NCBI GenBank assembly: GCA_905221615.1
Contig: CAJNDT010004668.1
Span: 881,001 to 945,000, forward strand
DNA length: 64,000 nucleotides
Direction of reading: 5' to 3'
DNA from: Symbiodinium sp. CCMP2592
Lineage: Eukaryota; Sar; Dinophyceae; Suessiales; Symbiodiniaceae
In this document: one piece after another, positions 2,114 through 64,000 of the stretch
Position numbering within the stretch: position 1 is the stretch's first letter
Layout of the letters: the number at the start of each line of letters is the position of its first letter
The notes under the pieces: model-generated
Told to the model about the DNA's origin: nothing
The model's database searches: none
Seen by the model: the letters and a program-made list of their open reading frames with translations, nothing else
Program-made: the position numbers and the translations under genes

Positions 2114-3052
2114 ATGGCGAAGGTGCGAGTGATGAGGGCTATCGCTCTCCTGGCAGCAGCTCTTAATTAAAATAGGTTTTTGAGGACTATAATTATAAGA
2201 AGGAGCCCCCAAAAGAGTATAGGTAACTATAAGGCCCCTACATTAATGTAGAACCCTTAAAGGGAGCCCTAGACCCCTTAAAGGAACCCTAAACCTCTGA
2301 ATTAAAGGAATCCTATAGTAGATTTGAGGCAGCAGCGCTCATGGCTGCCTCCGTTGCCCGCGCCTTCGTGGGTGTGCAAGCGCCCGCTCCGCGAGTCCAG
2401 ACGCAGCTCCGTGCCGGTGGGGAGTACACCGGCTGCTTGGCTCTTACTTACTAGTTTTATGCTGTTATAGTATGAAAATCTTCCAAGCGGACCAGGAATT
2501 ACAGTTTTTTTAAGGGCTTCTAAGAACAGCCGAGGCTTCGTGCCGGACTTGCAGCGCCGCCAGCTGATGAACTTCGTGCTGGTGACCACCGCCGGCATCC
2601 CGGTGTTGGTGGCCTTGGGCTGCTACCTCTGGTACTTCGTGCCACCCGTGGCCGGCGGTGGCAGCGGTGCGACCCTGGCCGGCGATCAGGAGGGCAACCC
2701 CATCACTTTGGAGAGCTGGGTGAAGTCGCACAAGGAGAACGACCGCGAGTTGGTCCAGGGCCTCAAGGGCGAGCCCTACTACCTCATCTCCACGGCGGAC
2801 AACATCAAGGACTTCGCCCTGCTGTCCGTGTGCACGCACCTTGGCTGCGTCGTTCCCTGGAGCAAGAGTAACAACAAGTTCTGCTGCCCCTGCCACGGCT
2901 CGCAGTACGATGAGAACGGCAAGGTGGTCCGCGGCCCGGCACCGCTGTCCCTGGCCCTCGCCCACACAACCACCCAGGACGGCAAGCTGGCTCTCACCCC
3001 TTGGCCTGAGAAGGACTTCCGCACCGACCTGGACCCATGGTGGAAGGTCTGA
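2114..3052 (+). CDS. petC: Cytochrome b6f complex Rieske iron-sulfur subunit (nuclear, plastid-targeted), 3 exons
   Basis: Encodes the 2Fe-2S Rieske protein, which passes electrons from plastoquinol to cytochrome f in the thylakoid cytochrome b6f complex. Exons: 2114-2152, 2329-2439 and about 2525-3052; joined they give about 225 residues. Exon 1 begins MAKVRVMRAIALL and with exon 2 forms a hydrophobic signal peptide ending near SVARA, followed by FVGVQAP, which resembles the FVAP motif of peridinin-plastid transit peptides. Exon 3 has VPDLQRRQLMNF, one membrane helix ending in WYFVPP, and both cluster-binding boxes, CTHLGC and CPCHGS, with the usual C-terminal end. Both introns are GC-AG (176 and about 85 nt). 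Intron 1 is flanked by the direct repeat GGCAGCAGC (2152-2160 and 2328-2336). Identity is firm; the start of exon 3 could shift by a few bases. Confidence 0.93.
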
Positions 3053-16797: not shown

Positions 16798-19700
16798 ATG
16801 GATCCTGCTGCGCTTGAAGAGTTCCGCAAGCTGGACCAGGACAGTGAAGATTCCGAGCCTTAAATCCCCAAGCATAAACCCCTAAACTAAAGACTAAACC
16901 TGCCCTTAAGAACAAAAAAAAACACAGCCCTAATTCCTGAACCCTAAACCCTAAACCAGCCAAATTGACTGGTACTACGCACCCGAGACCTCGTCTGGCT
17001 TGTCCGAGTTGCGAGAGCGTAATCCAGTTCAAAGCCCTCGGCACTCAACCATAAACCCTGAACCATGGGTAGACGGTCTCCTAAACCCTAAACCCTAAAC
17101 CGGTTGACGGGGCAGACCCGGTGACAGACAACGCAAAGGTCCGGCATTGGTTCTCATCCCATACTAGATGTGGGAGTTTCCGAAAATTAGGGGTACCCTA
17201 TTTTGGGGTCCTTATTATAAGGATCCTACTATTTAGGGTACTATATTAAGGACCCCTATTTGAGGCAACTGCCATATGAGATTAGATTTCTATTATTTTT
17301 ACATTGTCGTCTGTTCTGTTCTATGCTGCCGTATTGTATGATTGTTTAGACTGTATTTATGTTTTATTATGTGGAGGCTCAGGTTGGTGAAACTGGGGGG
17401 GATGCCACTCGCCTGCACCAGCAGGCCTGCTTTCATCAAGGTGCACAAGTCTAGCTTAAGCCGAAGCTGCTTGCACTTCCGCAGTTTTCCCCAGTTACCA
17501 AGCCCTAAACCCTAGACCCCTAAACCTTAAACCATCCTAAACCCTAAACCCTACTTAAAGGATCATGGGACTTAGTAACCTGGGTTATAAGTAGGGTAAC
17601 TATACTTATAACTACTTGTCCCCAATCAAGGTACTTATAACCTTACTTACTACGTCCCATGATCCTCAATGTAATCCTGAAGCTGTCGAGGAAAAAAACC
17701 GTCTCGAAGCCGAGATCAAGACCTTGTATGACTACCTCACGGAAGATGGTCATGCGGCAGAACTTGTGCAGGGCATAGCTAGTAAGGGTCCAAAGGACCC
17801 AATAATTAGGTACTCGGTTTTAAGATAGTACTTAATTATGTAGGTTAGGATTTTGGAGAGTATATGATTATTGGGCACTTGGACCCTTGGGGTAAGGTTC
17901 AGACATCACCTTGAAGAGCGGCCGTGAGTCCTGCATGCGAGGTATGCCAGGTGTCTCAGGGCCCCTCGTGGATGACGAGGGCTTTCCCAGAGGTGACATA
18001 GACCTCTATGCGGTTCGGCAAGCTCGGAACAAGTCCCCCGGCCGATGCGCTTGTTGAGGTTGTGTTGTGCTGAGCGGGTTTGGGCACAATTGGGCACAAG
18101 TCATCCGAGTTTTGCCGCGAAGACATCAAGTTCGCGGCGACCGTTTGAGAATAGGCTTGGAGGGTCGTTCCGGCTTGGAGGTGCGAAGGTATCTTGTGGA
18201 AGCACACAGAGTGAGCTCTGTAGCTGCCTGATGCAGGACGAAACCTAAGCCTGGTCAACTGAGGTATGTCTGCGCACAGACGGACCACACCGAAGTAATG
18301 AAGAAGATCGAACAGGCACCTTTCTTGCGCAAGCTGATGTTAACTTTAAGTCTCTCACACCTCCATGTCTCCTCTTCTCGGTACCATCAGCTTACATCGT
18401 GGAAACTTCAAGGTGAACATGCAACTTGAGGTATCAGACTTCACCATTTGATAAGAGTCGGGGCTTCCCTCTCTGTGTACCCTAAGGCCCCAGAGTAGTT
18501 CCTTTTTTGGGTTCATGTTTAGAATCCTATGAGGTGATTCCAAAAAGGAACTACTTTGGGGCCTCTGTGTAGTTTCTGGCCAGGCCATTGCAGCGATTCA
18601 CGCGGAGGCGAAGGCCGCATGAAATGCGACAATCCCTTCAAGCCATGGTTAGCTCAGTAAAGAATTGGGTGCTCGATTATTTAAGCTACTAAGAACTGGG
18701 TTTTTATTAAGGAACTCGGTTATTTCAGTTACTATGATAGAGTCATAGAGATCTTTGGAGGATGATAAGGTTTCCTTGTTGCGGCAACTAGCATTTCCAT
18801 TCTTAATAAGAGCCCAAGGGAAGGAAAACGAGCTGAAGCTGCACAAACACGTGGTGGGAGGTGTCCGGATTCGAGGCATAGTAGGTGTTTTCAAGGAGGC
18901 AGTCTTACCTGAATGACTACATGCTAGTGTCGTACTTCCGATGCTGTAGAACAGGGCATCCCAGTCTGTCAATGGCACAGCACACATATATAGGTCGAGT
19001 TGCACCTAATAGCCCAGCGCCACCGATTAGAACCCTTGTCAGGTGGACGTTCCGCGATCAGGGCCTGCTACAGCCGCTCCTGCCGATGCTGCCGAGGATG
19101 AGCCCATGTCGGAGAACCCGAGACCGGTATCAGATTGAGGTATTCGTGTTATTTTCATGGGCTTGGATTCTGATTCGATCATACATGGTTGCTATAAGGT
19201 TCGAGCTCAGATTGAGGGTGTCTTCCATGTCCACTCTCATGAGATTGCCCTGTGCGCCACATTTCTTATCCCATGATCACCGCATTTTATTTCATGTTTG
19301 GTCAAGTTCGCTTCGGCTCGCCAAGTGTATTGTTGTATGTGTGGCTTTCTCAGTACGGTAGCTGTCGCGCAAGTTGCCCTTTGTAGGTTAGGGCTGGGAT
19401 TGGAAGGCATGCCTCATCACACAAGGCCTATAGTAGCTATAAGAGTTGCAAGCCTGCTTGGTGTATGGAAGGCTGTAGCAGCAGGAAGCATGACAGTAAA
19501 GCACGGTACTCCATTTTGCAAGCTGGCACTCTGACAGAGGGTCAGCGACACTGACATTCAGGAACGTCCTCCTCCAGGTGAAGCTGGCAGCTCCTTTTGA
19601 TGTCTGGCTGCATCTAACATGACACCCCAGTTTGTGGGAAGCCCAAGCCTGCAAACTAGAGGTGGAATAATGAAATGGGAGTTTCCGAAAATAGGGGACC

Positions 19701-31091: not shown

Positions 31092-32023
31092 CTTTCTGCA
31101 TAGAAGCCTAAATGCTTTGAATACAGCAAGGGATTCTGGTTTGCTGTTCTGGAGGCCCCCGGCAGGCCGCTGCACTATTGAGGGGACCTTTTCATCCGAA
31201 CTATTGCGGGGTGGGCAGCTATCGTATACTACCCCTTAGAAAAGTTGTTGGGATGGCTTTTTTAATAAGGGGTTTATATAAGAAACCTATAGATCTGGCA
31301 GCCGTGCAAAACCAGAGTTTGGAGCTTTGGCCTGAATCCCTGAAGGCTGGAGACTTGAGGTTTCTATATAGAAGCCTTATGGTTTTGAATACAGCAAGGG
31401 ATTCTGGTTTGCTGTTCTGGAGGCCCCCGGCAGGCCGCTGCACTATTGAGGGGACCTTTTCATCCGAACTATTGTGGGGTGGGCAGCTATCGTATACTAC
31501 CCCTTAGAAAAGTTGTTGGGGTGGCTTTTTTAATAAGGGGTTTATATAAGAAACCTATAGATCTGGCAGCCGTGCAAAACCAGAGTTTGGAGCTTTGGCC
31601 TGAATCCCTGAAGGCTGGAGACTTGAGGTTTCTATATAGAAGCCTTATGGTTTTGAATACAGCAAGGGATTCTGGTTTGCTGTTCTGGAGGCCCCCGGCA
31701 GGCCGCTGCACTATTGAGGGGACCTTTTCATCCGAACTATTGTGGGGTGGGCAGCTATCGTATACTACCCCTTAGAAAAGTTGTTGGGATGGCTTTTTTA
31801 ATAAGGGGTTTATATAAGAAACCTATAGATCTGGCAGCCGTGCAAAACCAGAGTTGGAGCTTTGGCCTGAATCCCTGAAGGCTGGAGACTTGAGGTTTCT
31901 ATATAGAAGCCTTATGGTTTTGAATACAGCAAGGGATTCTGGTTTGCTGTTCTGGAGGCCCCCGGCAGGCCGCTGCACTATTGAGGGGACCTTTTCATCC
32001 GAACTATTGTGGGGCGGGCAGCT
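31092..32023 (+). repeat. 268-bp tandem array, three full units plus partials
   Basis: The marker TAGAAGCC recurs at 31101, 31369, 31637 and 31904 (periods 268, 268, 267). Units are almost identical. Each contains CTATTGAGGGGACCTTTT and a TTTATATAAG block that resembles a TATA promoter sequence. Identical ORFs in each unit (for example beginning at 31178 and 31446) are products of the repetition. The array ends about 80 b before the transposase exon. Confidence 0.95.
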
Positions 32024-32106
32024 TTTTGTTTTTGGTGGTTTGGGGCTTAATGACGGAATTGAAATCCTAAATCCGACACCCTCTTTCTTTCAAGTCGCAA
32101 GTGCAG

Positions 32107-35100
32107 GACCGTGCGAAGCGGCTCTTGCAGCAAGCAAAAGAGCAGGCCGAGGCTCTGGTTGCCAAGGCCGCAGCTGAAGCGGAGGCTCTCTTGGCCCGCG
32201 CTAAAGCTGAGAGCAACGTGGAAACCTCTCAGGAAGAGGGTCTAGACACTCAGGGCAACGCGGAAAGCTCTCAGGCACGGACTCTGCCGGAGCGTTCTCA
32301 GGCACGGACTCTGCCGGAGCAGCCTGACGGCCAAGGAGCTGCTCTGGTTGTGTACTCTGAGGGGGAAGAAGAAACTCTTCCAGAACAGGCCCGAACTCCG
32401 GCCGTGAAGAGGCGGCTCTCCTTCGACAGTCTCTCGAGCTCTGGCTCGAAACAAAAGTCTCTGAGAAGTTTCTGGGGCTCTGCAGAAGACCGAGCCGCTC
32501 GCTCTGCCGAGTCTGTTCCTGTGAAGGCGACTCTTCGGAACAGGCACTCTGAGGCTTACGAGCGACTGCGAGCTCTCGCTCGGGAGTACCAGGACGCTCT
32601 CTCTGACAGGGCTGAAGCTGTGGTGCAGAAGAGCTTCAACAAAGGCGGTCGGCCTCTTGGCTCTGGCACAGCTCCCTCTTCCAGCAACAGGCGAGTACGT
32701 GGCCAGGTCTCTGCAAGAAGAGAGCTGACCGCCTACGAGAAGCTGCTCCTCTGCCAGGAGGCGGGCTCTCGCTCGCCCGAAGTCTCTGAGCAGAAGCACT
32801 GGAAGCAACTCTCGGAAAAGTACGGCCTCCCTGTGCAGACTCTCAAGGAGTACTCTGGCAAGAAGGCCGTCTGGGAGGCTCTCGTGGAGAAGCACAAGCT
32901 CCACCCGAAGAGCAGAGCCTCTCGCAAGGCCAAGCGCTCTTGTCGCTACATGCGGCAAAAGGGCGGCGGTCGCAAGGCGGACTTTCCCGACCTCTTGCCC
33001 GCTCTGAAGCAGTGGCATGCGACTGAAAGGCAACACGGCCACTCTGTCTCCAAGCAGGACTTCTTTGCGGAGTACTTGACTCTCTTGGTGCAGAAAAGCC
33101 AGGCTCTGCTTCGAAAGGCCGAACTCTTGCCTCACGAAGACCCTGAGAAGCACTCTCTGCAGAAGCTGGCCAAGCTTGCTCTGGACAGGAAGCGCAAACT
33201 CTTGGCCTCAAAGAAGTACCGGCTCTCTTTGACGGACCGCCTGGTGACGGACTCTGGTGCGAAGTTCTTGGTGGCGGAGCAGGTGACGCACCTCTCTCCC
33301 ACCGAGGAGAAGGTACGCTCTCAGCTGACCTTCCAGGCCTGTGATCGGGCCCTCTGGGCCATGACGTGTGCCTCTGAGGAGGCTCTGGCCTCTGAAAAGC
33401 TCGTGGCCGACCCTGCCTCTGTCCTGAACTCTCGCAAAGACTTTGTGCTCGGCATGAGCGACCAGGTGCCGCTCTGGGCCAAAGCTCAGCCGAAGAAGCT
33501 TCTCTTCAGCGAAGATGAGCTCTTGCAAGTTCATCCTGGCAGCGGAGACTCTCTTCGCCAGGAGCTTCAGGCTGCCCGAACAGCTCTGGAGGAAAGTCTG
33601 GGCGAAGACGGCCTCTCCAGGTCTTGGGAGACATGGACGAGCAGCCTTCCGACTCTAAGCTCAAGCCCGGCTCTAAGGTCAAGCGAGCACACTCTGAGGC
33701 GGACAAGTTCCGCATCACCTATGAGGCCCGGCAGAAGATCCACGGCCTCTGCGGTGATGGCACTCCCTTTGCTGAGGTGTCCGCTGGTCTCTTGGTGTTC
33801 CCGGGGAAGCACTGCCGCCTCTCGAACTTGGACTCTGAAGGCCGGTACATCTCCATGGAGCGGTACCGTGTGGGGAACTCTGAGGTTGTGCACCTCTCTG
33901 GCGAGAAATGCCGGTCTCTTCAGTGGGCTGTGAAACTGCGGGCTCTCTACCCGCAGGAGTTCTCTGAGATCGACATAATGCAGCAACCTGCCTCTAACAT
34001 GGACGGTGTGCTCTTGAACTGGGTGGTGCAGCAGCAGGGCTCTGAAGAACCTTGCTCGCTCTACATCCGAGACTCTTTCGCGGCCATCTTCTCCTCTGAA
34101 GTCCAGCAGACTCAGCAGGTCGTGAACCAGGCCTCTGTCGAGATTCTCGGAAAGCTCACTCACTATCTCCAGGTGACGGACACCGACTTTGCTCGCTCTT
34201 TCAAGTCACTCTTCCGAGAAGCCTTGACCGAGCAACGGACCCTCTGGAGAGAGAAGAACAAGGGTCTCTTCCAGGCCGCTCTTACTTAGGACCTAATAAT
34301 AAACTAAATGAAAACAATTGGAATCTCTCCCTTCGCTGGCAGGTGACTTACGAGCACATAGTCCTCTGCACCGTCGCTGCCCAACGTGCTCTGCAGAAGC
34401 GGCAGGCCGAGAAGGACTTCGTGCTCTCTGCCACCGTCCGCAACGGACTCTTGGTGTACCGCCCCTGCAACGGAGCTCTCGTGAAAATCTGCGACCAGGC
34501 CTGGGCCAAGGAGCTGTCTCTGGGAGTGGGAACAAAACGAATCCCAGAGAGTTGGCTCTCCGACCGGTACAAGTGGCTCTCCAAAGACGGTGTTCCGCAG
34601 CCTCCGGACTTCAAGCTCTCTTCCAACATCAAGGCCGTCTCGGACTTGATCCAGTGGAGCTATGACTCTCCGGCTCCTGCGGAAGATGGCGCCGATGACT
34701 CTCTGGACGTCCCGGACAGCATCCAGGAGGAGCTTCTCTTGCCGCTGAACAACAGCCTCTTCCTCAGGCTGTCCCCGGCTCTCCGTCGGAAACATCTGCG
34801 GCTGGAGGCCACCTCTGCAGACTACAAAGCTCTTCTGGAGAAGACGAAAGAGAAGGCTGCGGAGCGCCAGAACAGGGCTCTGGTCAGGAGGGTTCTGCGA
34901 TCCAAGCTTCTCTCTGCTCTCGGTAAGAAGCTGAAGGAACGCAGCAAGAAAGAGGTCCTCTCCGGCATCGTGCCTCGAGCAACCACCTCTAAGGCGAAGA
35001 AGGTGGCCGCCTCTACCGTCAAGGACTCGGAGAAGGCCTCTGCCAAGGCCTCTGCCAAGAAGGTGCCGAAGCTCTCCGCGGTGACGAAGCCCTCTGTGAC

Positions 35101-54445: not shown

Positions 54446-56929
54446 CGCGCTTGTCTTGAACCCGGCGTTCGTTCGGGAGTTGAAGTGTCGTTTTGTCGTT
54501 CAGGGCCATAGGGCTTCGTGTCTGGTGATGCAAGCGTCTGGGGTCCGAGCCTCAGAGCCAGATGGATCAACAGACTTTTTGCTAGATTAGCACAGACTCC
54601 GTCTGACGTTGGTCAGGATCCAGTAGGTATGGAGTTAAATGTGCGGAGTGATCGAGCCTCCTTTCACCTCACACGTAGTACGCCTGTAGTCGAACCCAAA
54701 GACCTCGCCTGGCTTGTCTGAGTTGCGAGAGCGTAAAGACGTAAAGACTTAATTGCCAGAAACCCTGTGGTTGTTCAGCTCGACGAATGCTCTCCAGGAC
54801 GGTTCCGTGCTTTTCCTGAAGGTCGGCCTTTGTGCTAGTCGCGGAGCTCAGGCCGACATTGCGGTGCGATAGCACGAGTTGGCCATCCGATGTATTATAT
54901 ATTGTGTTTTGTTTTTTGTTTTGTTGGTGGGACTTGGGGGTCGGGTGCAAATTCCGTACCATTGCAGATTTGTGCGCTGCTAAAATCTTCTGTGACAGAC
55001 ACCTTCATGTTCCGAACTTGAGCCACATTCGCAACTGTCAGCGCTGAGGCCGGGACGTTTATCCCGACTGTGCAGAGGCATTCATTGGGCGCCGGAGTGT
55101 ATTGCTAATTGTTTTTTTGTAAAAACTGCTTGTGATGTGTTTTTAGAAGAACAATTCAAAAACAGTGTTTTTAAGATAGAAGCAGTTCACAAGCTGATGT
55201 TCAATAATGTTGAGTGTCCATGTGCAATTGGCCTGGCATGTAGAGAAGCTCTGAGACCCGAAGCACTCGCTTGAATGTCTGGCTTTGCCATCCATAAACC
55301 CTCCAAACCCCAAGATCATACAATGAACGAGCAGGCGACCCATCGAGGAATGCTGGCGACCCCACGGCTCAATGGACCCGAGGCGGTGTGTGAGGGATAG
55401 GCGATCTTGAAACTGACTTCAGGGCGTTTCCTCATGCAGAGAATTTGCGACAATCGAACATGAGCAAATCACTCATGATTCGCTTTTCTGCTCAACGATC
55501 TCGTGGTATGAGTTGCCGACAGTTGCCAGCACTGCCCCTTCCCATGCGTGGTACGCCGGCATCAACCGTTGTTCCCCTACTTTGCTTGCAGTCCCCTAAA
55601 CCACATACGCCAGCCGCTGAAGTGAGCGATGCTTCAGTCTCGAAGGCGGCTGCAGTGCTGCCGCATTTCGTCTTCGTGTCGCCGGCGCTGCTTCATGCAA
55701 GGCTTCCGACCACTGGAGAGCCGTGGCCTCAGCAAAGAACCCTCAATTCATGCAGGCATTGAGCAATCGAAGAGCATAGCAGTGATTATCGAACTTCCTT
55801 CCATGTTCTCCCGAAGTTGTGGACCCCGAGTCTTGATTTATTCCGGTCGTCTTCAGTCTCCTGCTTCACCTCAGTGTGTGGTTCTTTTGAAGCCGGAACC
55901 TGCACCTTCAGCTTCAAAGTCTCCGGCCTTCCTTTCAAGGTGCTGTGCCTATATGCCGCCACCAGAGCATGCTGCAGGCTGTGTGGCACGGCGCTCAGTG
56001 CAAAGCCTGAAGAATCCTCGGGAAGCAGAAACGGCTGGTCTTATTGCCTGAAGAAGCATGCTTGGCCAAACTGTTTTCTAGTCCTGGTGTGCAATTTGAC
56101 AAGGATTGAACAGGTGTTTGCGATACTCTTTCTCCCGAGACGTGCGTTGCAGACATGGCCTGAACCAAGGACTGGGGGAGTAGGTCTTGCTTTTGCGTTT
56201 CTTTGTTCGGTCTGAAGCAGTGCACGGAGCCGTTGCTGCAGCTCCTGTTTAATTACATTCTTTGTCATAGTTGGTGTAACCCAATAAGGGATACAAGTTT
56301 AAATTTCTAATGTATACTATCCCAACCATGAACTATAGGACATTTTCTGCATGCTGTAGCGATTCTCGTCCTTGCCGGGCGCGTGGGGAATCGCGACGAG
56401 TAGATCCTAAAGCGGCCCTGAAGTCTTTAATCTCGGTTCTTGTTAAGGAATCTAGTTTAAGCTACCATAACAGTGATCTATAGTAAATGATATGGTTCCT
56501 TTATTAACGGCAACTTAAATCCTTAACCCTTTGCGCCGAACCAGAACCACAGGGTTTAGATCAACAAGGCTTATATGAAAGGAACCCAAAATCTCATTTT
56601 TGTATGTGGTTGGCTTTATTTGTGTTTAAAAGTGTTTTTTTGTATTTAAAAGTATTGTTTTGTATTTAAAAGTTTTTTAAATAGGTTTTTTTGTGTTTTA
56701 CAGTTGTTAAAATTCTTTTATTTTATTTTTGGTGTAAAAAATACATGTTTGTGAATTTTGTTTCTGAGTGAGTCAATTGGCTTCCTGTTGTTCTACCTGG
56801 TTTCCTGCTGCTGTATGTCTACAAAATTGTTGTTTATTTGTTGTTGAAGTTAATAATTTTTAAAATTTAATCTTTTTAAATAGTTTTGGGTTGTGATTGA
56901 ACAAAGAAGGGAGGCCGTAGTGACATGTT
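54444..56929. other. 2.5 kb without a recognised gene; AT/T-rich second half
   Basis: Contains a copy of the GAGTTGCGAGAGCGT repeat (54719-54733). Reading frames at 55445-56215 lack motifs. About 56590-56890 is unusually T-rich with repeated TTTGTATTTAAAAGT. This marks a shift in composition before the GGCAGAGTGCC region. Confidence 0.45.
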
Positions 56930-57486
56930 GACTTGCCTTGAGATCTTGCCCTTACCCACACGGATCGACTGCCCTTCTCGGTTCGTGGGCACCGTTGGCC
57001 GGGTGTCAGGTTATGAGGCGATTGTATCTAGACCGCCTTGGGGCCAACGTGCCAGGGCAGTGGCATATGACACCCGGACAAATGGGCTAAAGTGCCGGGT
57101 GGGGCGGTTGAGGGGTTGTTCGCAGCCGTGCTTACAGCCTTGAAGGGGAGGCCATCCATGCTTGTCGTCACGTTTTGTTAGGGAGCCTTGCGACTTGGAT
57201 CGACAGAGGCAGAGTGCCACCTTACCCACACGGATCGACTGCCCATCTCGGTTCGTGGACACCGTTGGCCGGGTGTCAGGTGTTGTCGATGGTACCTGGA
57301 CCGCCTTGGGGCCAACGTGCCAGGGCAGTGGCATATGACACCCGGGCACATGGGCTAAAGTGCCGGGTGGGGTGGTCCAGTGGTTGTGGCTTTTTTATTT
57401 TTCTCCCAACCAGGAGGGGAGGCCATCCATGCTTGTCACGTTAGTTAGGGAGCCTTGCGACTTGGATCGACAGAGGCAGAGTGCCA
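56930..57486. repeat. Tandem duplication, about 270-bp unit
   Basis: CTTACCCACACGGATCGACT recurs at 56951 and 57221, GGGAGCCTTGCGACTTGG at 57181 and 57448, and GGGGCCAACGTGCCAGGGCA in each unit. The GACAGAGGCAGAGTGCCA junction is in both. Confidence 0.92.
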
Positions 57487-57845
57487 GTCGAGCCTCTCGA
57501 GGTTGCCTTACTTAAGTCCCTGCCCCATCGGGGTTGCTCCCCACACCGTTGGCCAGGTCTAAGTGTTCGGTTTGAATCCAAGCCTAGTGAACGCCTTCTC
57601 TTCCATTTCCTTCTCTCCCATCGGTCTTCATCGGCTTCCAGCCCATCGAGAAGTGGATGCCAACTGCTGGGATCTCAGCATCAGCTTGCTTCAGCTACTT
57701 CCATTATTATGGTACAGTCCTGGCACCGAGGCTCATGACGAGGATCCTGAGGACATGCTGCCATCGCAGCGTAATCTACTATAGTCGTGTTACAGCTGCT
57801 CTGTCTCAAGTCTAAGTCGTAGTAGGCCCCCCTGCAAGCCGGCAG

Positions 57846-58184
57846 ATGTCGTCGATGTCGTGGAGTGACAGTGAGTCTGTGGGCTCGGACTGGGTTCTGG
57901 TTGACGATGAGGGTGCAAGTACTGCGGGCTCGGTCGCGGACAGTGCTGACGACGATGATTATGTGATTCCGTTCGACGAGATGCTAGAGGAGTCCTTTTC
58001 GACATTGTGGATGTTTCTGGATTCTAAAGAGCGTGGGCAAGTCTTTCGAGCAGCCTTCCATATCAATGAACAGATCATGTTCGTACTGTTTCCGAGACTT
58101 TTGCGGGATTTTAGGCAAGGCAGAGTGCCAGGAATTTTATATTTCAATGTGACAGACGAATGGCTGTCGTCACTGAATCAATGA
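57846..58184 (+). CDS. Small acidic protein, tandem paralog 1
   Basis: 112 residues from ATG 57846 to TGA. No known family recognised. The N-terminal half is acidic and Ser-rich (MSSMSWSDSES then ADSADDDDYVIPFDE). The second half is hydrophobic/aromatic (LEESFSTLWMFL, FVLFPRLLRDF). GGCAGAGTGCC encodes GRVP in GRVPGILYFN. The neighbour 851 bp downstream differs at many residues yet keeps the frame, which supports a real protein under constraint. Confidence 0.7.
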   Translation: MSSMSWSDSESVGSDWVLVDDEGASTAGSVADSADDDDYVIPFDEMLEESFSTLWMFLDSKERGQVFRAAFHINEQIMFVLFPRLLRDFRQGRVPGILYFNVTDEWLSSLNQ

Positions 58185-58696
58185 TTTGTCGTGTTTGTAC
58201 AGCCTCCGCGACAGTATCACGGATCTTGGGGAAGGCAGAGTGCCGGGTTTGCGTGTGTTTAGGGGATTTTGAATTCGACGATCTAGCCAGCAGAGCTAGA
58301 CTGTCCGATTTGAGACCTCAGCGGTAGTGTGCGCAACTTGGATTCAAAACGGTTACCCAGCATGACATGCTGACTACACAGTGCCGGGTGGCAGTGATGT
58401 CCTCAGGACCCTGCTGTCTCCGAGGCTGGCTGCCTGCCTGCATAGTCTGTCAGTGAGTTGACTTGCACCATACATGATCGACATCTGCCGGCCAGAGAAT
58501 CAAGCGATTCATGCATACTGATGTAACAGTAGTAACAAAATGTTACATATCATTGATTAATGTACTATATAGTGATGCATTAGTCACTGTTAATGTTTTA
58601 ATCGTTGGACAATTGTGTGCTCGATGAAAGCAGTGATGCCGACGACCTGCTCTGTCTCTAGTCTAAGTCGTAGTAGGCCCCCCTGCAAGCCGGCAG

Positions 58697-59038
58697 ATGT
58701 CGTCGATGTCGTGCAGTGACAGTGAGTCTCTGGACTCGGACTGGATTCTGGTTGCCGATGAGCGTGCAAGCACTGTGGCCTCGATCATGGACAGTGACTA
58801 CGATGATTATGTGATTTATTTCGACGCGCTGCTAGAGGAGTCCTTTTCGACATTGTGGTTCTTTCTGAATTCTGAAGAGCGTGGGCATGTCTTGCAAGTA
58901 GACTGGCATATCAATGATATGATCCTGCACGTACTCTTTCCGAGATTTATGCAGGATTACAGTGAAGGCAGAGTGCCAGGAATTTTATATTACAATGACG
59001 TGCGAGACGAAGCTCTGTCGTCAATGATGAATCAGTGA
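58697..59038 (+). CDS. Small acidic protein, tandem paralog 2
   Basis: 113 residues from ATG 58697 to TGA, alignable end to end with the 57846 gene. Shared blocks are SDSES, LEESFSTLW, EERG/KERG, HVLFPRFMQDY versus FVLFPRLLRDF, GRVPGILYYN, and a final SS..NQ. Copies differ by in-frame indels near the acidic part. Function unknown. GRVP again comes from GGCAGAGTGCC in the same phase as in paralog 1. Confidence 0.7.
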   Translation: MSSMSCSDSESLDSDWILVADERASTVASIMDSDYDDYVIYFDALLEESFSTLWFFLNSEERGHVLQVDWHINDMILHVLFPRFMQDYSEGRVPGILYYNDVRDEALSSMMNQ

Positions 59039-59485
59039 TTCATCGTGTTTGTACAGCCTCCGAGACCGCATTACGGATGTTGGGGAAGGCAGAGTGCCGG
59101 GTTTGCGTGTGCTTAGAGGATTTTGAATTCGACGATCTAGCCAGCAGAGCTAGACTGTCCGATTGGAGACCTCAGCGGTAGTGTGCGCAACTTGGATTCC
59201 AAAAGGTTACCCAGCATGACATGCTGACTACACAGTGCCGGGTGGCAGTGACGTCCTCAGGACCCTGCTGTCTCCGAGGCTGGCTGCCTGCCTGCCTGCC
59301 TGCATAGTCTGTCAGTGAGTTGCCTTGCACCATACATGATCGACATCTGCCGGCCAGGGAATCAAGTGATTCATTCATACTGATGTAACAGTAGTAACAC
59401 AATGTTACATATCATTGGTTAATGTACTGTATAGTGATGCATTAGTCACTGTTAATGTTTTAATCGTTGGACAATTGGGTGCTCG

Positions 59486-60784
59486 ATGAAAGCAGTGATG
59501 CCGACGACCGTTTCAAGGTGCTCAGGGAGTTCCGAGGCAGAGTGCCAGACTTCTGCTGCTGACCATCAGAATCAGGCCAATCACATTGACCTTGGCAGTG
59601 ATTACTGGAACGAAGCCGTGCAACAACTTCGGTGGAATTGTTTACACTGTGGCAGATCAGCTGCCGACTATACCACCGGGCTCCGAAAGATCCAAAGGGC
59701 TGCACAATTGGATCAACGAATCAAATTGGCAGTTGAGGCCATCTCAGATTTCGGAGATATGGATATGAAGTTGTACAAAGCATGGACCGGCCAGACAGAT
59801 GTGCTGCCTGGGTCGATCCCGCCACCTCGGCCATGCCAGCATGATGTCGAGACGTGGCCCATGGATGATGTTTTGATTTACGACCATCCCCAGTGGCAAC
59901 TGTTTGTTGGCAGTATTGGTTGCCCGATCCGATATGACCAGCTCCGGGTCAAGCCTGACATTGTCATCTCTATGAATGCAGATGACAGACCTCGGAATTT
60001 TGAGCCATGGGACTGGTATCAGTATTTGGCGAATTGTGGACCGTTTGGCACTGCACATCTTCGGTATGGTGGCTGGGATCAAACACATGCCAATGACTTT
60101 GATGCTGAACAAAGAAGTCATGAGTTCAAGACCATTTGGCGCCGCCTCATTTCAGATTTCAGAAAGATTATGATGTGCTGGCAGCGCTCAGCAGAGGAGT
60201 TCAGCCAGAGTCAAAGGCAGAGTGCCATCAAGGGCAAAATGATGGGCAAGGCCAATGGCGGCAGGGGCAAGGGCAAGACAATCAGCAAGGGCTACAGCGG
60301 CCCCTGTCAGGTTTCCAATCACATGCAAAGCCAGAAGGCATCGACGAAGGGCTCATTTGGCTATGGCTGCTCCTATGACAAGGGCTTCAGCAAGGGAAGT
60401 GACATGGGCAGCCTGTTCGGAAGAGCCGCTGAAGGAAGGCAGAGTGCCGATGGAAGGCAGAGTGCCTTGAAGGTGGCCGATGAGACATTCCCTGGTGAGC
60501 TCGGTAATGCTCTTGCTTTGTTGGAGGCGATGAAGCTTCAGGGAGGTGGTCGGAAGCGTGGAGGCAAGAAGAGGCCAATTCGTGTGCTTGTCCATTGCTA
60601 CGGTGGCATTAACAGGACCTGTGCTGCTTATTGTGTCCTAGTCATGGCCTTTGCCTCGATGACCATGGAACAAGCCATTGTCAGGTGGATCAACCACCGA
60701 GCCTACTATGCTCCATTCCGGGATCGTGAGTACATGATTGAAGCACTGCTGGAAATGCAGGATGAGCTGCACACGTACAGTTGA
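59486..60784 (+). CDS. Protein with tyrosine/dual-specificity phosphatase signature and Gly/Lys-rich linker
   Basis: 432 residues. Near the C-terminus RVLVHCYGGINRTCAAY contains HC-x5-R-T, the PTP/DSP P-loop: nucleophile Cys371 and Arg377 by this start. The following MTMEQAIVRWINHRAYY fits the helices after the loop. The general-acid Asp is not assigned with confidence. The N-terminal third has a CLHCG segment and WPMDDVLIYDHPQWQLFVG. Residues about 245-325 are rich in Gly, Lys and Ser (GKANGGRGKGKTISKGYSG). Three GGCAGAGTGCC copies add RQSA peptides and a fourth gives EAECQ. ATG 59486 lies inside the tail of the 851-bp duplicated unit, so the true start may be later or spliced. Predicted phosphatase; substrate unknown. 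Confidence 0.65.
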   Translation: MKAVMPTTVSRCSGSSEAECQTSAADHQNQANHIDLGSDYWNEAVQQLRWNCLHCGRSAADYTTGLRKIQRAAQLDQRIKLAVEAISDFGDMDMKLYKAWTGQTDVLPGSIPPPRPCQHDVETWPMDDVLIYDHPQWQLFVGSIGCPIRYDQLRVKPDIVISMNADDRPRNFEPWDWYQYLANCGPFGTAHLRYGGWDQTHANDFDAEQRSHEFKTIWRRLISDFRKIMMCWQRSAEEFSQSQRQSAIKGKMMGKANGGRGKGKTISKGYSGPCQVSNHMQSQKASTKGSFGYGCSYDKGFSKGSDMGSLFGRAAEGRQSADGRQSALKVADETFPGELGNALALLEAMKLQGGGRKRGGKKRPIRVLVHCYGGINRTCAAYCVLVMAFASMTMEQAIVRWINHRAYYAPFRDREYMIEALLEMQDELHTYS

Positions 60785-61300
60785 TCATCGACACTGAACC
60801 CGAAGTCCATGGTCAAACAGTTCTGCTCCAATGAATGATTCTGAGCCGTCGAAATTTGTGTCCCGACACTGGCCCAGCCAGAGAGTCCTGGACCCGACAC
60901 TGGACTGCTGGCTGGAAGTGAAACACAGTCCTTACCTTGAAAAGGCTAATAGTTACATTCCCACTTTCAGCTGGCAGTCACAGCTTAATTCGTGCGTTTA
61001 AACCTGGCTGCCGGTGTTACTGACTGAGCTTAAAAAGAAAGTGAGATCATGCCCGTCTCGGTTGTGGAAACTGTCAGTTCCTTTGTCGGTTGTGCCGACA
61101 TGGTGATCAGGGCCGCTGGGGCGATTGGATGAGTGAATCCAGCCGGCGACTCAGTGGGTGCAAATGTGACTTTAACAGTCAGTCTCCGGTGATTGTAATG
61201 AGTGCTCATTTTTGCCTACTTGTGCTGTTGCAGCAGTCTGGTTCAGGTAAGGCAGAGTGCCCTTGTCCCAATTGTGCAGTGGGCAAGTCATTATCCGCCA

Positions 61301-61888
61301 TGGAAAACACAGGGGCAGGCCGCCACCGCACTCAGCTGCAAGAGTTTTCAAATTGGCAGCTGACCAACTCATTGAACAACGCTCAAGCCCAAAGAACAAG
61401 TCAGGTCGGGAAGGGAGCAGGAAAGCCAGGGCAGACTGCCACAGGGCAGAGTGCCACAGGGCAGAGTGCCAGCGCGAGCAAGGGCGATCTTGGCAAGGGC
61501 AAGGGAAAGAAGGGCAAGACCCCGATGCAAGACCCCAACCAGACCCTTCACACATACTTCATGTGCGTGGAGGACGTTTGGCAGGCAGTGGGCAGTGTGT
61601 TTGATGATAATCATAGCATGTGTTGATTGTGACTGTTTCTTACTGCTTGACTGGATGTCTCCCTGCAGATTCGCTGGGACTTCTTGAAAGGGAACGGCAT
61701 CAGCGCTTGGGCGCAACCCGGTTCCTCGGAGACCAAAAACCATCCGCACTGGTCCTTGCGCCCCACGGCCCAGTTGGCCCTTGAACGCTACCAATGGTGG
61801 CCAGACAGCATTAGATGGCCACTCAGATGCAAGCCATGCTTCGACGCTACATTTATTTATTATCTTATATCTACGGATCTTAATAATT
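61301..61888 (+). CDS. Unknown protein, Gly/Lys-rich, probably two exons
   Basis: The open frame continues from upstream (61251, KAECPCPNC, a Cys pair made by the GGCAGAGTGCC element). The first in-frame ATG here is 61301 (MENTGAGRHRTQL). Exon 1 has TGQSATGQSASASKG, two tandem 11-mer insertions, then a KGKGKKGK stretch and LHTYFMCVEDVWQAVG. It fits a GT donor at about 61594. A second exon from about 61669, after CTGCAG, reads IRWDFLKGNGISAWAQPG then RPTAQLALERYQWWPDS and stops at 61888. The KGK-rich linker resembles that of the phosphatase-like neighbour. No family recognised. Confidence 0.45.
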
Positions 61889-61990
61889 AAAACTGACTAG
61901 AATCAAGTAGCAACTTCAACATGATCTCAGTTCAGGATCGATAAACAGGCACCGCCACTTTACCTGAAGCTGGAGCTCACCGGTGCAGGC

Positions 61991-62251
61991 ATGCAAGTGA
62001 TGACGGAGAGAAGATGGCTCTATGCCTGTCATCAGGGCTGGGCGCGGGGGGCTGAGAATTTGACGCTGTGGGAAGGGGAAGTCCGCGAAGGTGAGCAACT
62101 CTTGTGGACCACGACCATGGTGAGATTCGGTTACGACGAAGATGATCCGGAGGCCTGGAATGAAGAGCGTGTGGACGATGAGGAGGATTACAACGAGTTC
62201 GAGCCTGCTATTGTGCAAGAAAACATCCTGATGATGGACGGCGAATCGTGA
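61991..62251 (+). CDS. Short acidic protein or terminal exon
   Basis: 86 codons from ATG 61991 to TGA (MQVMTERRWLYACHQGW; GENLTLWEGEVREGEQLL-like stretch; DEDDPEAWNEERVDDEEDYN). GTGCAG just upstream could be a splice acceptor, so this may be the last exon of the preceding gene. No family recognised. Confidence 0.45.
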   Translation: MQVMTERRWLYACHQGWARGAENLTLWEGEVREGEQLLWTTTMVRFGYDEDDPEAWNEERVDDEEDYNEFEPAIVQENILMMDGES

Positions 62252-63377
62252 GAAAAAAGAAGGGCAGAGTGCCTTAAAAGGCAGAGTGCCAAAGGCAGAG
62301 TGCCCAGAATTGGACCATTCAGTGAGTGGCAAATTCCAACATCAATTTAATTTACAGGCCAGGACAGTGACGAAGGCAGAGTGCCAGGTGGGTCAGGCTT
62401 CGTCGACTGACTCTTCTCAAGTTTTTCAGTGCCGATGTCTGCTCATGTGGACTTCTGCCTGCCTTTCGCACAGCAACAGGTTATTTGTTTGTGGTGCAGG
62501 CAAACCAACAAGTCATGATCAAAGTTGTGAGTGTTTTGGAGAAGGCCTCGTCGCTGTCAGAGTAGTGCCTCCAGAAGAGCATTGCTTGCTGCAGAAGCAA
62601 AACTGTGAGTGCTGAGACTTCTGAAGACCGAGCACTTCTGAGTTCTGTTGGATGTGTTGGGTTTGCGACTGTGCTGAGAGAGTCTGAGTATGAATGAAAG
62701 TGACCATGCAAGGTTTGGCCGTCAGCTGGCGTCTCCAGACCCCAGGATTGCTGGTCATCGGTGCTGTTCTTAGCTTCCGATCATGCTGCTTCTGCGTTGC
62801 CAAATTCAACTTAGCATTCTCGGGCTTCTGAAGTGTCATGTCATGATTGTTTTGCCTATGGCTTATGATGGTTGCTCAGGTTTCAAATGTTGCTGCAGTG
62901 GTCCTTGAATCATGGCATATGGCAGATTTGAATATCAACACAGCCCTTGAATTAGGTTTCATTCGTGTGCTAAGCTCCCGATCATGCTGAGTCTGTCTGG
63001 CCCCTCAATTAAGTTAAACTCCGTGTAGCTGCTGCTTCAATAAAAGTGTCATGTCATGATTATTCTGTCGATGGAGTTGCTCAAAGTGAAGTGAGTCGTG
63101 GTCCTTGAATGATGGCATATGCATGATATTTAATGTCAATGTGAGCATAATATCAAAATATAGTTGATATAATTTAAATTGTGTCAAATACTAGTAACTA
63201 TAATCTAACAACACATTGACGTCAGAGGTAGTATATCATTTCGACATTATAAGGCAGAGTGCCGCCTCGCCATTCTTTGCAGAGTGCCTTGAGCTGGACT
63301 GAGAAGGCTGAGTGCCTGCATCTGGCTGGACAAGGCAGAGTGCCGCAATCTGGCTGGACAAGGCAGAGTGCCGCAGG
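62252..63377. other. Spacer with eight exact and two near GGCAGAGTGCC copies and a direct repeat
   Basis: Three copies of the 11-mer lie within 42 b at 62263-62304. The 62.77-63.15 kb part is an imperfect direct repeat. No convincing coding sequence. A short frame at 62490-62615 with Cys residues is unassigned. Confidence 0.5.
62773..63150. repeat. Imperfect direct repeat, about 200-bp unit
   Basis: GATCATGCTG, GTGTCATGTCATGATT and GTGGTCCTTGAAT(C/G)ATGGC recur in the same order about 200-215 b apart. Confidence 0.8.
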
Positions 63378-64000
63378 ATGACAGCGCCTGTGCATACGAG
63401 TCCGCTTGGTCAGACGTTTTGGGCCAATGTGCGAGCCGGCAACATCACCTGTGAGTTTTACGAACAACAGCTGGATGGATCCTTGCAGATGGGTCCGAAT
63501 TATCCCTGGCCGATCAAAAAACCTCTAGAATACTATGTCACAGCCTTCGGTGAGGTCCGCCTGCAATTCCGCGTGAGAGGCGGGAAAGGATTCAAACAGT
63601 GCAAGTGTGAATGGAAATACATCGGTCATGGAATGAATCGGGACTCAATGATTGCGAGGATCCCACAGCCGTGGGTCATCGACATTCTGAAGCTTCTGCG
63701 CGAGGTCAGGATTCCTCGGTCTGAAAGGCAGAGTGCCGAAGTCCTCAAAGCCTCGACAGTCGCAGCAGAGGCCCTGAGACTGGTGGATTCTATTCCTGAA
63801 GATGCTCTGGACTTCCATCATCCGACAGATCAGGTGCACCTCTGTGTCAAGCTGCACAGGCCACTCGCAAAGGATGAAAAAGAGTGTGGAAACCAATTTG
63901 ACTGGCGTTTTCTGCAATCTCGAATGTTCACAACCCACTGGCAATCGTTTCCTGTCCCGCTCGCTTTCGACTTGAAAACCTTGGTCACCCATGCCTCGGG
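63378..64000 (+). CDS. Unknown protein, truncated by window end
   Basis: Open from ATG 63378 to the last base (207 codons, no stop). ATG lies five bases after a GGCAGAGTGCC copy. Sequence features are TPVHTSP-like start (MTAPVHTSPLGQTFWANVR), CEFYEQQLDGSLQ, YYVTAFGEVRLQFRVRGG, CKCEWKYIGHGMNRDSM, then ILKLLREVRIPRSERQSAEV, where RQSA is the 11-mer at 63727. The remainder is regular and charged. I do not recognise a family. Length and composition make it credible as coding. Confidence 0.6.
   Translation, partial: MTAPVHTSPLGQTFWANVRAGNITCEFYEQQLDGSLQMGPNYPWPIKKPLEYYVTAFGEVRLQFRVRGGKGFKQCKCEWKYIGHGMNRDSMIARIPQPWVIDILKLLREVRIPRSERQSAEVLKASTVAAEALRLVDSIPEDALDFHHPTDQVHLCVKLHRPLAKDEKECGNQFDWRFLQSRMFTTHWQSFPVPLAFDLKTLVTHAS

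Follow-up and report, generated by a model that had tools for sequence, protein, structure and literature searches.

In the genome of the dinoflagellate Symbiodinium sp. CCMP2592, the 11-mer GGCAGAGTGCC is characteristic of one family of giant DNA transposons. The analysis started from a stretch of 64,000 nucleotides (C4667:881001-945000, hereafter the window), which runs into one such transposon at position 56520. Within the element the motif is dense, nearly always exact, oriented and found in all reading frames. That GGCAGAGTGCC is a family-specific, strand-oriented self-tag for an element-encoded factor, most likely read in sense RNA and acting as an anti-silencing signal or expression licence, is an explanation to which we give nearly as much credence as doubt.

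The motif and its transposon

The window contains 21 exact copies of GGCAGAGTGCC, all on the plus strand and within 57208-63737 by exact-match count (starts at 57208, 57475, 58119, 58234, 58967, 59088, 59536, 60216, 60438, 60456, 61251, 61445, 61460, 62263, 62280, 62294, 62375, 63253, 63334, 63362 and 63727); in 100 dinucleotide shuffles the word turned up 0.09 times on average and never more than once. An earlier interpretation made from the letters alone (the sequence-only reading) had reported this number, the tandem clusters and the peptide readings GRVP, xAEC and xQSA, all correctly, and had noticed no copies in the first 57 kb, which is true of exact copies because the element starts at 56520. 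Allowing one mismatch, 25 matches were found in total, four beyond the exact ones; the single minus-strand one-mismatch match is at 19525, far from the island. The extended consensus, AA-GGCAGAGTGCC-A/G, is an asymmetric word. Some of the window copies reside in segmental duplications internal to the element (56950-57486, 57796-59509).

The genome-wide count suggested by the sequence-only reading, run on the 1,098,105,373 bases of the assembly, gave 20,442 copies of GGCAGAGTGCC (9,890 on the plus strand, 10,552 on the minus strand), versus 244 (118 and 126) for the reversed word. Among the matches listed, the first 100, all are on the 4-Mb contig C1, where the first copy is at 1,147,141. DNA beyond the window was read over 100 kb on each of two contigs, 264 kb in all. 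There the motif is restricted to two discrete islands, the flanks of which (187,340 bases, 2,500 of them N) contain no GGCAGAGTGCC; a dispersed, oriented word comparable to it was not found in them either. In the DNA read, the motif travels with a giant transposon delimited by terminal inverted repeats (TIRs), and the earlier idea of a tiny mobile element hopping through the genome is not supported. The analogies then drawn, with HIP1 and the Rickettsia palindromic elements, hold insofar as all three are over-represented short words or palindromes within genes. HIP1 is genome-wide and symmetric, Rickettsia palindromic elements measure about 100 nt or more and are kept in one frame, whereas the motif is an oriented word of 11 nt, found in three frames and, in the DNA read, in one transposon family alone; neither analogy fits.

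Both islands are copies of one giant transposon, aligned end-to-end in blocks of 97-99% identity. Its main landmarks, with window numbering extended beyond 64000 where needed, are:

56515..56519, unstranded: left copy of the target-site duplication TTAAA; the right copy follows immediately on the element's right terminus, beyond the window
56520..56570, plus strand: left TIR (TCCTTAACCCTTTGCGCCGAACCAGAACCACAGGGTTTAGATC...), with its inverted partner at the right end
56520-89670 (extended; to about C4667:970,670), plus strand: giant transposon, C4667 copy (copy 1), 33.15 kb, with one 100-base gap
56520..64000, plus strand: part of the transposon inside the window, the first 7.5 kb, 97-99% identical to the C1 copy over several blocks
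Contig C1, minus strand: second copy of the transposon (copy 2), 43.5 kb, with about 14.8 kb of its interior additionally duplicated

The inverted repeats at the two ends are imperfect and about 50 bp long. A 25-base TIR pattern has 608 matches in the genome, its reversed control none. The first 100 of these places resolve into 35 inverted pairs and 30 unpaired ends; the pairs form a long class (23 pairs, 11-59 kb, mean 32 kb) and a short class (12 pairs, 4.2-7.3 kb). Matching 5-bp target-site duplications (TSDs), read by eye, flank 12 of the 13 insertions examined (C4667 TTAAA, C1 TATAT, C31 GCTTG, C58 TACTG, C80 AAGAA, C127 TTGTA, C153 TCCTG, C169 TATAG, C305 TAGAA, C462 TTAAA, C102 CTATA, C341 TTAAA), those of C1, C58 and C341 being weak, as their flanks are repetitive, and C125 being the one insertion with no resolved TSD. 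TIRs, a TSD of fixed length and dispersed near-identical copies are the hallmarks of a TIR DNA transposon. Of the 52 loci scored (the best 52 of 831 candidates), 48 have a 962-aa open frame and the remaining four have frames of 950-957 aa; at one locus a later segment is interrupted by a stop. Each element copy has 87-116 motifs on both strands. Extrapolation from the TIR pairs puts the long elements of the genome, very roughly, at 140-260, and this number multiplied by 87-116 would be of the right order for the 20,442 copies.

Public sequences were also searched. An IMG/VR scan with AAGGCAGAGTGCCA returned at least 120 stretches, every one with a single copy of the 11-mer; motifs paired at 31 bases or less occur at 2 IMG/VR and 61 GTDB loci. 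The public loci richest in the 11-mer were discarded, being bacterial repeats in other contexts, such as GGACGGCACTCTGCCGTCC in an Oscillospiraceae metagenome-assembled genome (MAG). Five loci of the Oscillospiraceae MAG JAEEZZ (L132, L140, L164, L165 and L182) have tandem arrays of a bacterial repeat, GTAGGGACGGCACTCTGCCGTCCGCG..., with the same 11-mer in its core. At L121:5826-5851 (IMG/VR contig 3300030104_005486) two motifs are 15 bp apart, with spacing and flanks resembling those of the transposon. Among the publications found to contain the 11-mer (10) or its complement (2), none concerns dinoflagellates by title.

Spelling, frames and multiplication of the motif

The 35.5 kb around the full C4667 element contain 77 exact motifs on the plus strand and 10 on the minus strand; one-mismatch forms on the plus strand number 9 versus the 77 exact ones. 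The density is about 2.3 per kb on one strand, a motif about every 400 bases, throughout the element. Long open frames contain motifs, as do the stretches outside them, and each of the three frames is used: 57 of the 77 are in open reading frames (ORFs) of at least 150 aa, split 32/13/12 among the frames. Open frames of the element that start in the window include the following:

57816..58184, plus strand: putative 122-aa frame with one GRVP motif, in the first copy of a tandem duplication of ~850 bp
58667..59038, plus strand: putative 123-aa frame, duplicate of the preceding one, motif retained
59456..60784, plus strand: 442-aa frame with a phosphatase-like C terminus (HCYGGINRT) and four motifs, one read AEC and three RQSA
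61045..61626, plus strand: putative 193-aa frame with three motifs, also kept in the C1 copy
61925..62251, plus strand: putative 108-aa frame, motif-free
63312..64000, plus strand: start of a frame of ~1,300 aa, continuing to 67226 (extended), with 11 motifs overall

The 11 bases concerned could spell GRVP in 96 ways. It is the exact 11-mer that spells GRVP in 32 of 32 readings of copy 1 and in 42 of 43 of copy 2. For RQSA-type readings the figures are 13 of 14 and 17 of 19, for AEC-type readings 19 of 19 and 23 of 23 (overlapping ORFs counted separately). Since all 32 GRVP readings of copy 1 are the exact 11-mer, the nucleotide word is what is kept, in line with the earlier proposal that selection acts on the nucleic acid rather than on the peptide. 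The 442-aa protein and its homologues, 11 aligned proteins in all, share RQSA at residues 254-257 without exception, in an alignment with a mean column identity of 47%; a second site, where present, is made up of one to three tandem copies. What appears to be one and the same 21-nt repeat is read in two frames, RQSA and GRVP, by P0006 and P0007, and the two readings jointly spell GGCAGAGTGCC, as deduced by hand.

Across the full 33 kb of the element, the flanks of the 77 plus-strand copies group into 57 clusters at a 64% threshold; the copies are therefore not derived from a single duplicated block, an origin that the sequence-only reading had itself considered. The local multiplication it had proposed does occur: tandem expansions are spaced at 13-15 bp, and a 14-bp unit, AAAGGCAGAGTGCC, is single in one element copy and doubled in the other. 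Such expansions, and such a difference in copy number, would also be expected of a functionless by-product spread by slippage or gene conversion. This we regard as the least probable of the explanations weighed here, because the 57 flank clusters surround an exact core with almost no synonymous spellings, RQSA is conserved in relatives 47-68% identical, and the body of the short derivative C125, described below, is motif-free. At one site the motif is intact in one element copy, shortened and broken in the other. Substitutions between the two copies, gaps excluded, number 5 in 1548 motif columns and 314 in 50408 columns outside.

Strand, family versions and recognition

The orientation of the motif tracks that of the element, plus in the C4667 copy and minus in the C1 copy. 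With the gene strand defined as the one that encodes the two frames having homologues (442 and 962 aa), motifs outside a terminal array are distributed 77 versus 1 between gene and opposite strand in copy 1, and 105 versus 2 in copy 2; the single opposite-strand copy in the body of copy 1 lies in a stretch that is array-like by eye. The constant orientation claimed earlier holds within the window and along the gene strand, and fails for the 10 opposite-strand copies found in the C4667 element outside the window. Nine opposite-strand motifs in each element copy belong to the array:

88424-89233 (extended), near the right end, minus-strand motifs: terminal array (L216) of about nine units of ~94 bp, with telomere-like CCCTAAA

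The 4.2-kb derivative C125 has both TIRs as in the long element, with which it shares about 375 bp at the left end (84%) and about 590 bp at the right end (82%), along with a stretch that corresponds to one or two units of the array; for most of its body there is no match in the long element. In this derivative, the one read, the gene strand contains zero motifs, while the other strand has one exact and one one-mismatch motif near the right end. This single example indicates that movement does not require body motifs in cis and that these motifs go together with the open frames.

Chi and KOPS are polar DNA signals, and a signal of this kind could orient repair, replication or a chromosome process along the element. 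The motif is oriented, dense, exact and insensitive to frame, as such a signal would be, and its orientation flips at the terminal array. The explanation is nonetheless very improbable, since elements of 4-7 kb with the same TIRs exist and the one read has a motif-free body; we know of no such process for cut-and-paste transposons. No better placed is the hypothesis that the transposase binds the motif, which would represent hAT subterminal repeats in extended form. BED domains of Hermes bind subterminal repeats near the transposon ends, according to the accessible text of PMC10368747, and the two motifs that C125 keeps near its right end would suit this role. C125 is devoid of other copies, and in long elements motifs are spread over 32 kb, with none in the 688 bp nearest to the left end; a binding site for the transposase is accordingly held to be highly unlikely.

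To judge from their proteins, related transposons appear to have tags of their own. Linkers were compared at P0012 positions about 141, 378-385 and 655, where model confidence is about 70, <50 and <50. In the close family GRVP accounts for most G-x-V/I/L-P words in P0011 (4/5), P0012 (4/4) and P0013 (4/4), and for 2/4 in P0014. GVVP is found at the same or neighbouring linkers in P0015 (3/4) and P0017 (5/5), GVLP makes up 5/6 of these words in P0016, and P0020 carries GTVP and GIVP. Measured against 2000 composition shuffles, counts are in excess in the close family and in P0015, P0016 and P0017 (P<=0.0015); P0020 is borderline (0.053), and P0036, a partial relative of P0015, has a single GVVP (0.246). 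In the 18 remaining proteins tested (P0018, 19, 21-30 and 37-42 among them) such words number 0-2, none above shuffles. In the tree P0015 with P0036, and P0016, are placed beside the GRVP clade, P0017 and P0020 on long branches, and the unmarked P0018, P0019, P0021 and P0022 among P0017/P0020 in an order that the tree leaves open. The G-x-V/I/L-P pattern was picked post hoc, after viewing the sequences, and the other families were seen as proteins alone; the DNA tags of the P0015, P0016, P0017 and P0020 families would be 11-mers such as GGNNNNGTNCC or GGNGTNYTNCC.

The nearest tested precedent found appears to be VANC of the VANDAL transposons, as far as the accessible parts of PMC5735166 and PMC10398659 go. 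In the former, VANC proteins bind short family-specific motifs (YAGTATTAY; AGTTGTCC/AGTTGTAC), which multiply as tandem repeats and change along with the protein; for VANC21, non-coding regions give the stronger signals, and binding to coding probes is far less efficient. A short family-specific motif in many copies, its tandem multiplication and its coordinated change between families (here a post hoc pattern, seen in proteins for the other families) would be common to both systems. VANDALs, which are Arabidopsis MULEs, are several kb long with motifs mainly in non-coding DNA, whereas here an element of ~33 kb with a predicted Hermes-like fold has most motifs in long open frames, one-directional outside the array. 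By this precedent, the motif could be the duplex DNA site of an element-encoded anti-silencing protein, dense sites holding the element open. An apparently family-specific tag that multiplies in tandem and forms an array near the right end is what such a protein would require. The 77 versus 1 strand bias is unexpected for a duplex site, and the preponderance of motifs in ORFs of at least 150 aa is at odds with the stronger VANC21 signals in non-coding DNA; the explanation is considered unlikely, though far from negligible.

The motif is exact, stranded and independent of frame, it grows in tandem and seems to have family versions, all of which points to recognition by something co-evolving with the element. 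In the self-tag explanation preferred here, a putative element-encoded factor would recognise the tag, most likely in sense RNA (the nascent or polycistronic transcript), and recognition would license the expression of the element itself, by anti-silencing, elongation, export or stability. Copies would accumulate through duplications of 13-15 bp in tolerant spots such as disordered linkers, and recogniser and tag would drift jointly until a whole family switches to its GRVP, GVVP or GVLP version. The strand bias makes recognition of RNA more likely than recognition of DNA. A more specific form, which we find possible and on the whole doubtful, is that of a one-directional 11-nt password in all transcripts of the element, by which an RNA-binding protein of the element would tell self from host and rivals, with families switching password.

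Several observations weigh against the self-tag explanation. Foremost is the inverted terminal array, which a simple sense-RNA tag does not predict. The hairpin, which the sequence-only reading had considered as an RNA structure, is weak in context, with a mean stem pairing probability of 0.30 versus 0.26 (one flank shuffle each) and hence no clear excess of pairing; together with the array, this leaves room for recognition of DNA. ORFs of at least 150 aa, most of them putative as genes, hold 57 of the 77 motifs, yet they cover 63% of the element. The substitution rate in motif columns is about half of that outside, a weak difference given the small counts. No recogniser of the motif was found, and the family pattern is both post hoc and at the level of protein.

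Encoded proteins and known giant elements

The element encodes a transposase, the predicted fold of which is nearest to Hermes/hAT, RNase H-like with a helical insertion. No hAT Pfam family was found at E<=1 among the matches of 24 homologues, and the 5-bp TSD, the giant size and the extra open frames further set the element apart from Hermes, whose target duplication is 8 bp (PMC10368747, accessible text). ORF 79046-80107 (extended) resembles by eye the N terminus of P0019, and the transposase may be split over two exons. P0016 has no relatives in IMG/VR. The 442-aa frame gives weak Pfam matches to CDKN3/DSPc, under curated cut-offs, and its AF2 model is poor (pLDDT 48); it has 10 homologues. 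Among the homologues of the 442-aa and 962-aa frames, those named to organism come from Symbiodinium necroappetens and Polarella glacialis alone, which fits a dinoflagellate host. A PDB sequence search with two element ORFs gave no matches, and Rfam at gathering thresholds reports nothing in L214, L215, L216, L234 or window positions 56000-64000. Among ten downstream ORFs Pfam returned weak low-complexity matches (TFIIA, Yju2, dehydrin) for one alone, and no polymerase, integrase, capsid or reverse transcriptase domain was found by Pfam in 17 ORFs scanned, one of them in part. A 385-aa element ORF (L215:3344-4498, plus strand) with EIFAGQG and GTPC motifs looks by eye like a C5-methyltransferase, with no Pfam match at E<=0.05.

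Giant transposons are known, Starships among them. Polintons/Mavericks and Terminons likewise span tens of kb and carry several genes; Polintons typically measure 15-25 kb, up to 40 kb, and Terminons up to 40 kb (PMC6431247, accessible text). The 5-bp TSD and the predicted Hermes-like fold distinguish the element from these giant transposons; no polymerase, capsid or reverse transcriptase domain was seen in the 17 ORFs scanned. Literature searches on dinoflagellate giant transposons, Symbiodiniaceae transposons and hAT in Symbiodinium, which did not extend to subscription papers and bioRxiv, retrieved no such element, nor is one described in the accessible parts of PMC11071213 and PMC6431247.

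Elsewhere in the window, an ORF at 2471-3052 (plus strand) resembles by eye a plastid Rieske iron-sulphur protein and is presumably a host gene. A tandem repeat of ~268 bp with short palindromes is found at 31162-31976, GCAGGCCGCTGC occurring at four places 267-268 bp apart. ORF 32071-33933 contains GGCACGGACTCTGCC twice, 27 bp apart (32274-32288 and 32301-32315), read QARTLPE; the pair has GGCA...TGCC arms too, in a different gene region.

At the numbers extrapolated, the giant element would be a sizeable part of this genome. An exact word kept about every 400 bases through three phases implies selection on the nucleic acid strong enough to override protein sequence. If the family versions hold at the DNA level, they would constitute a natural experiment in how transposons discriminate self from host, in a lineage where little is understood of how genes are regulated.

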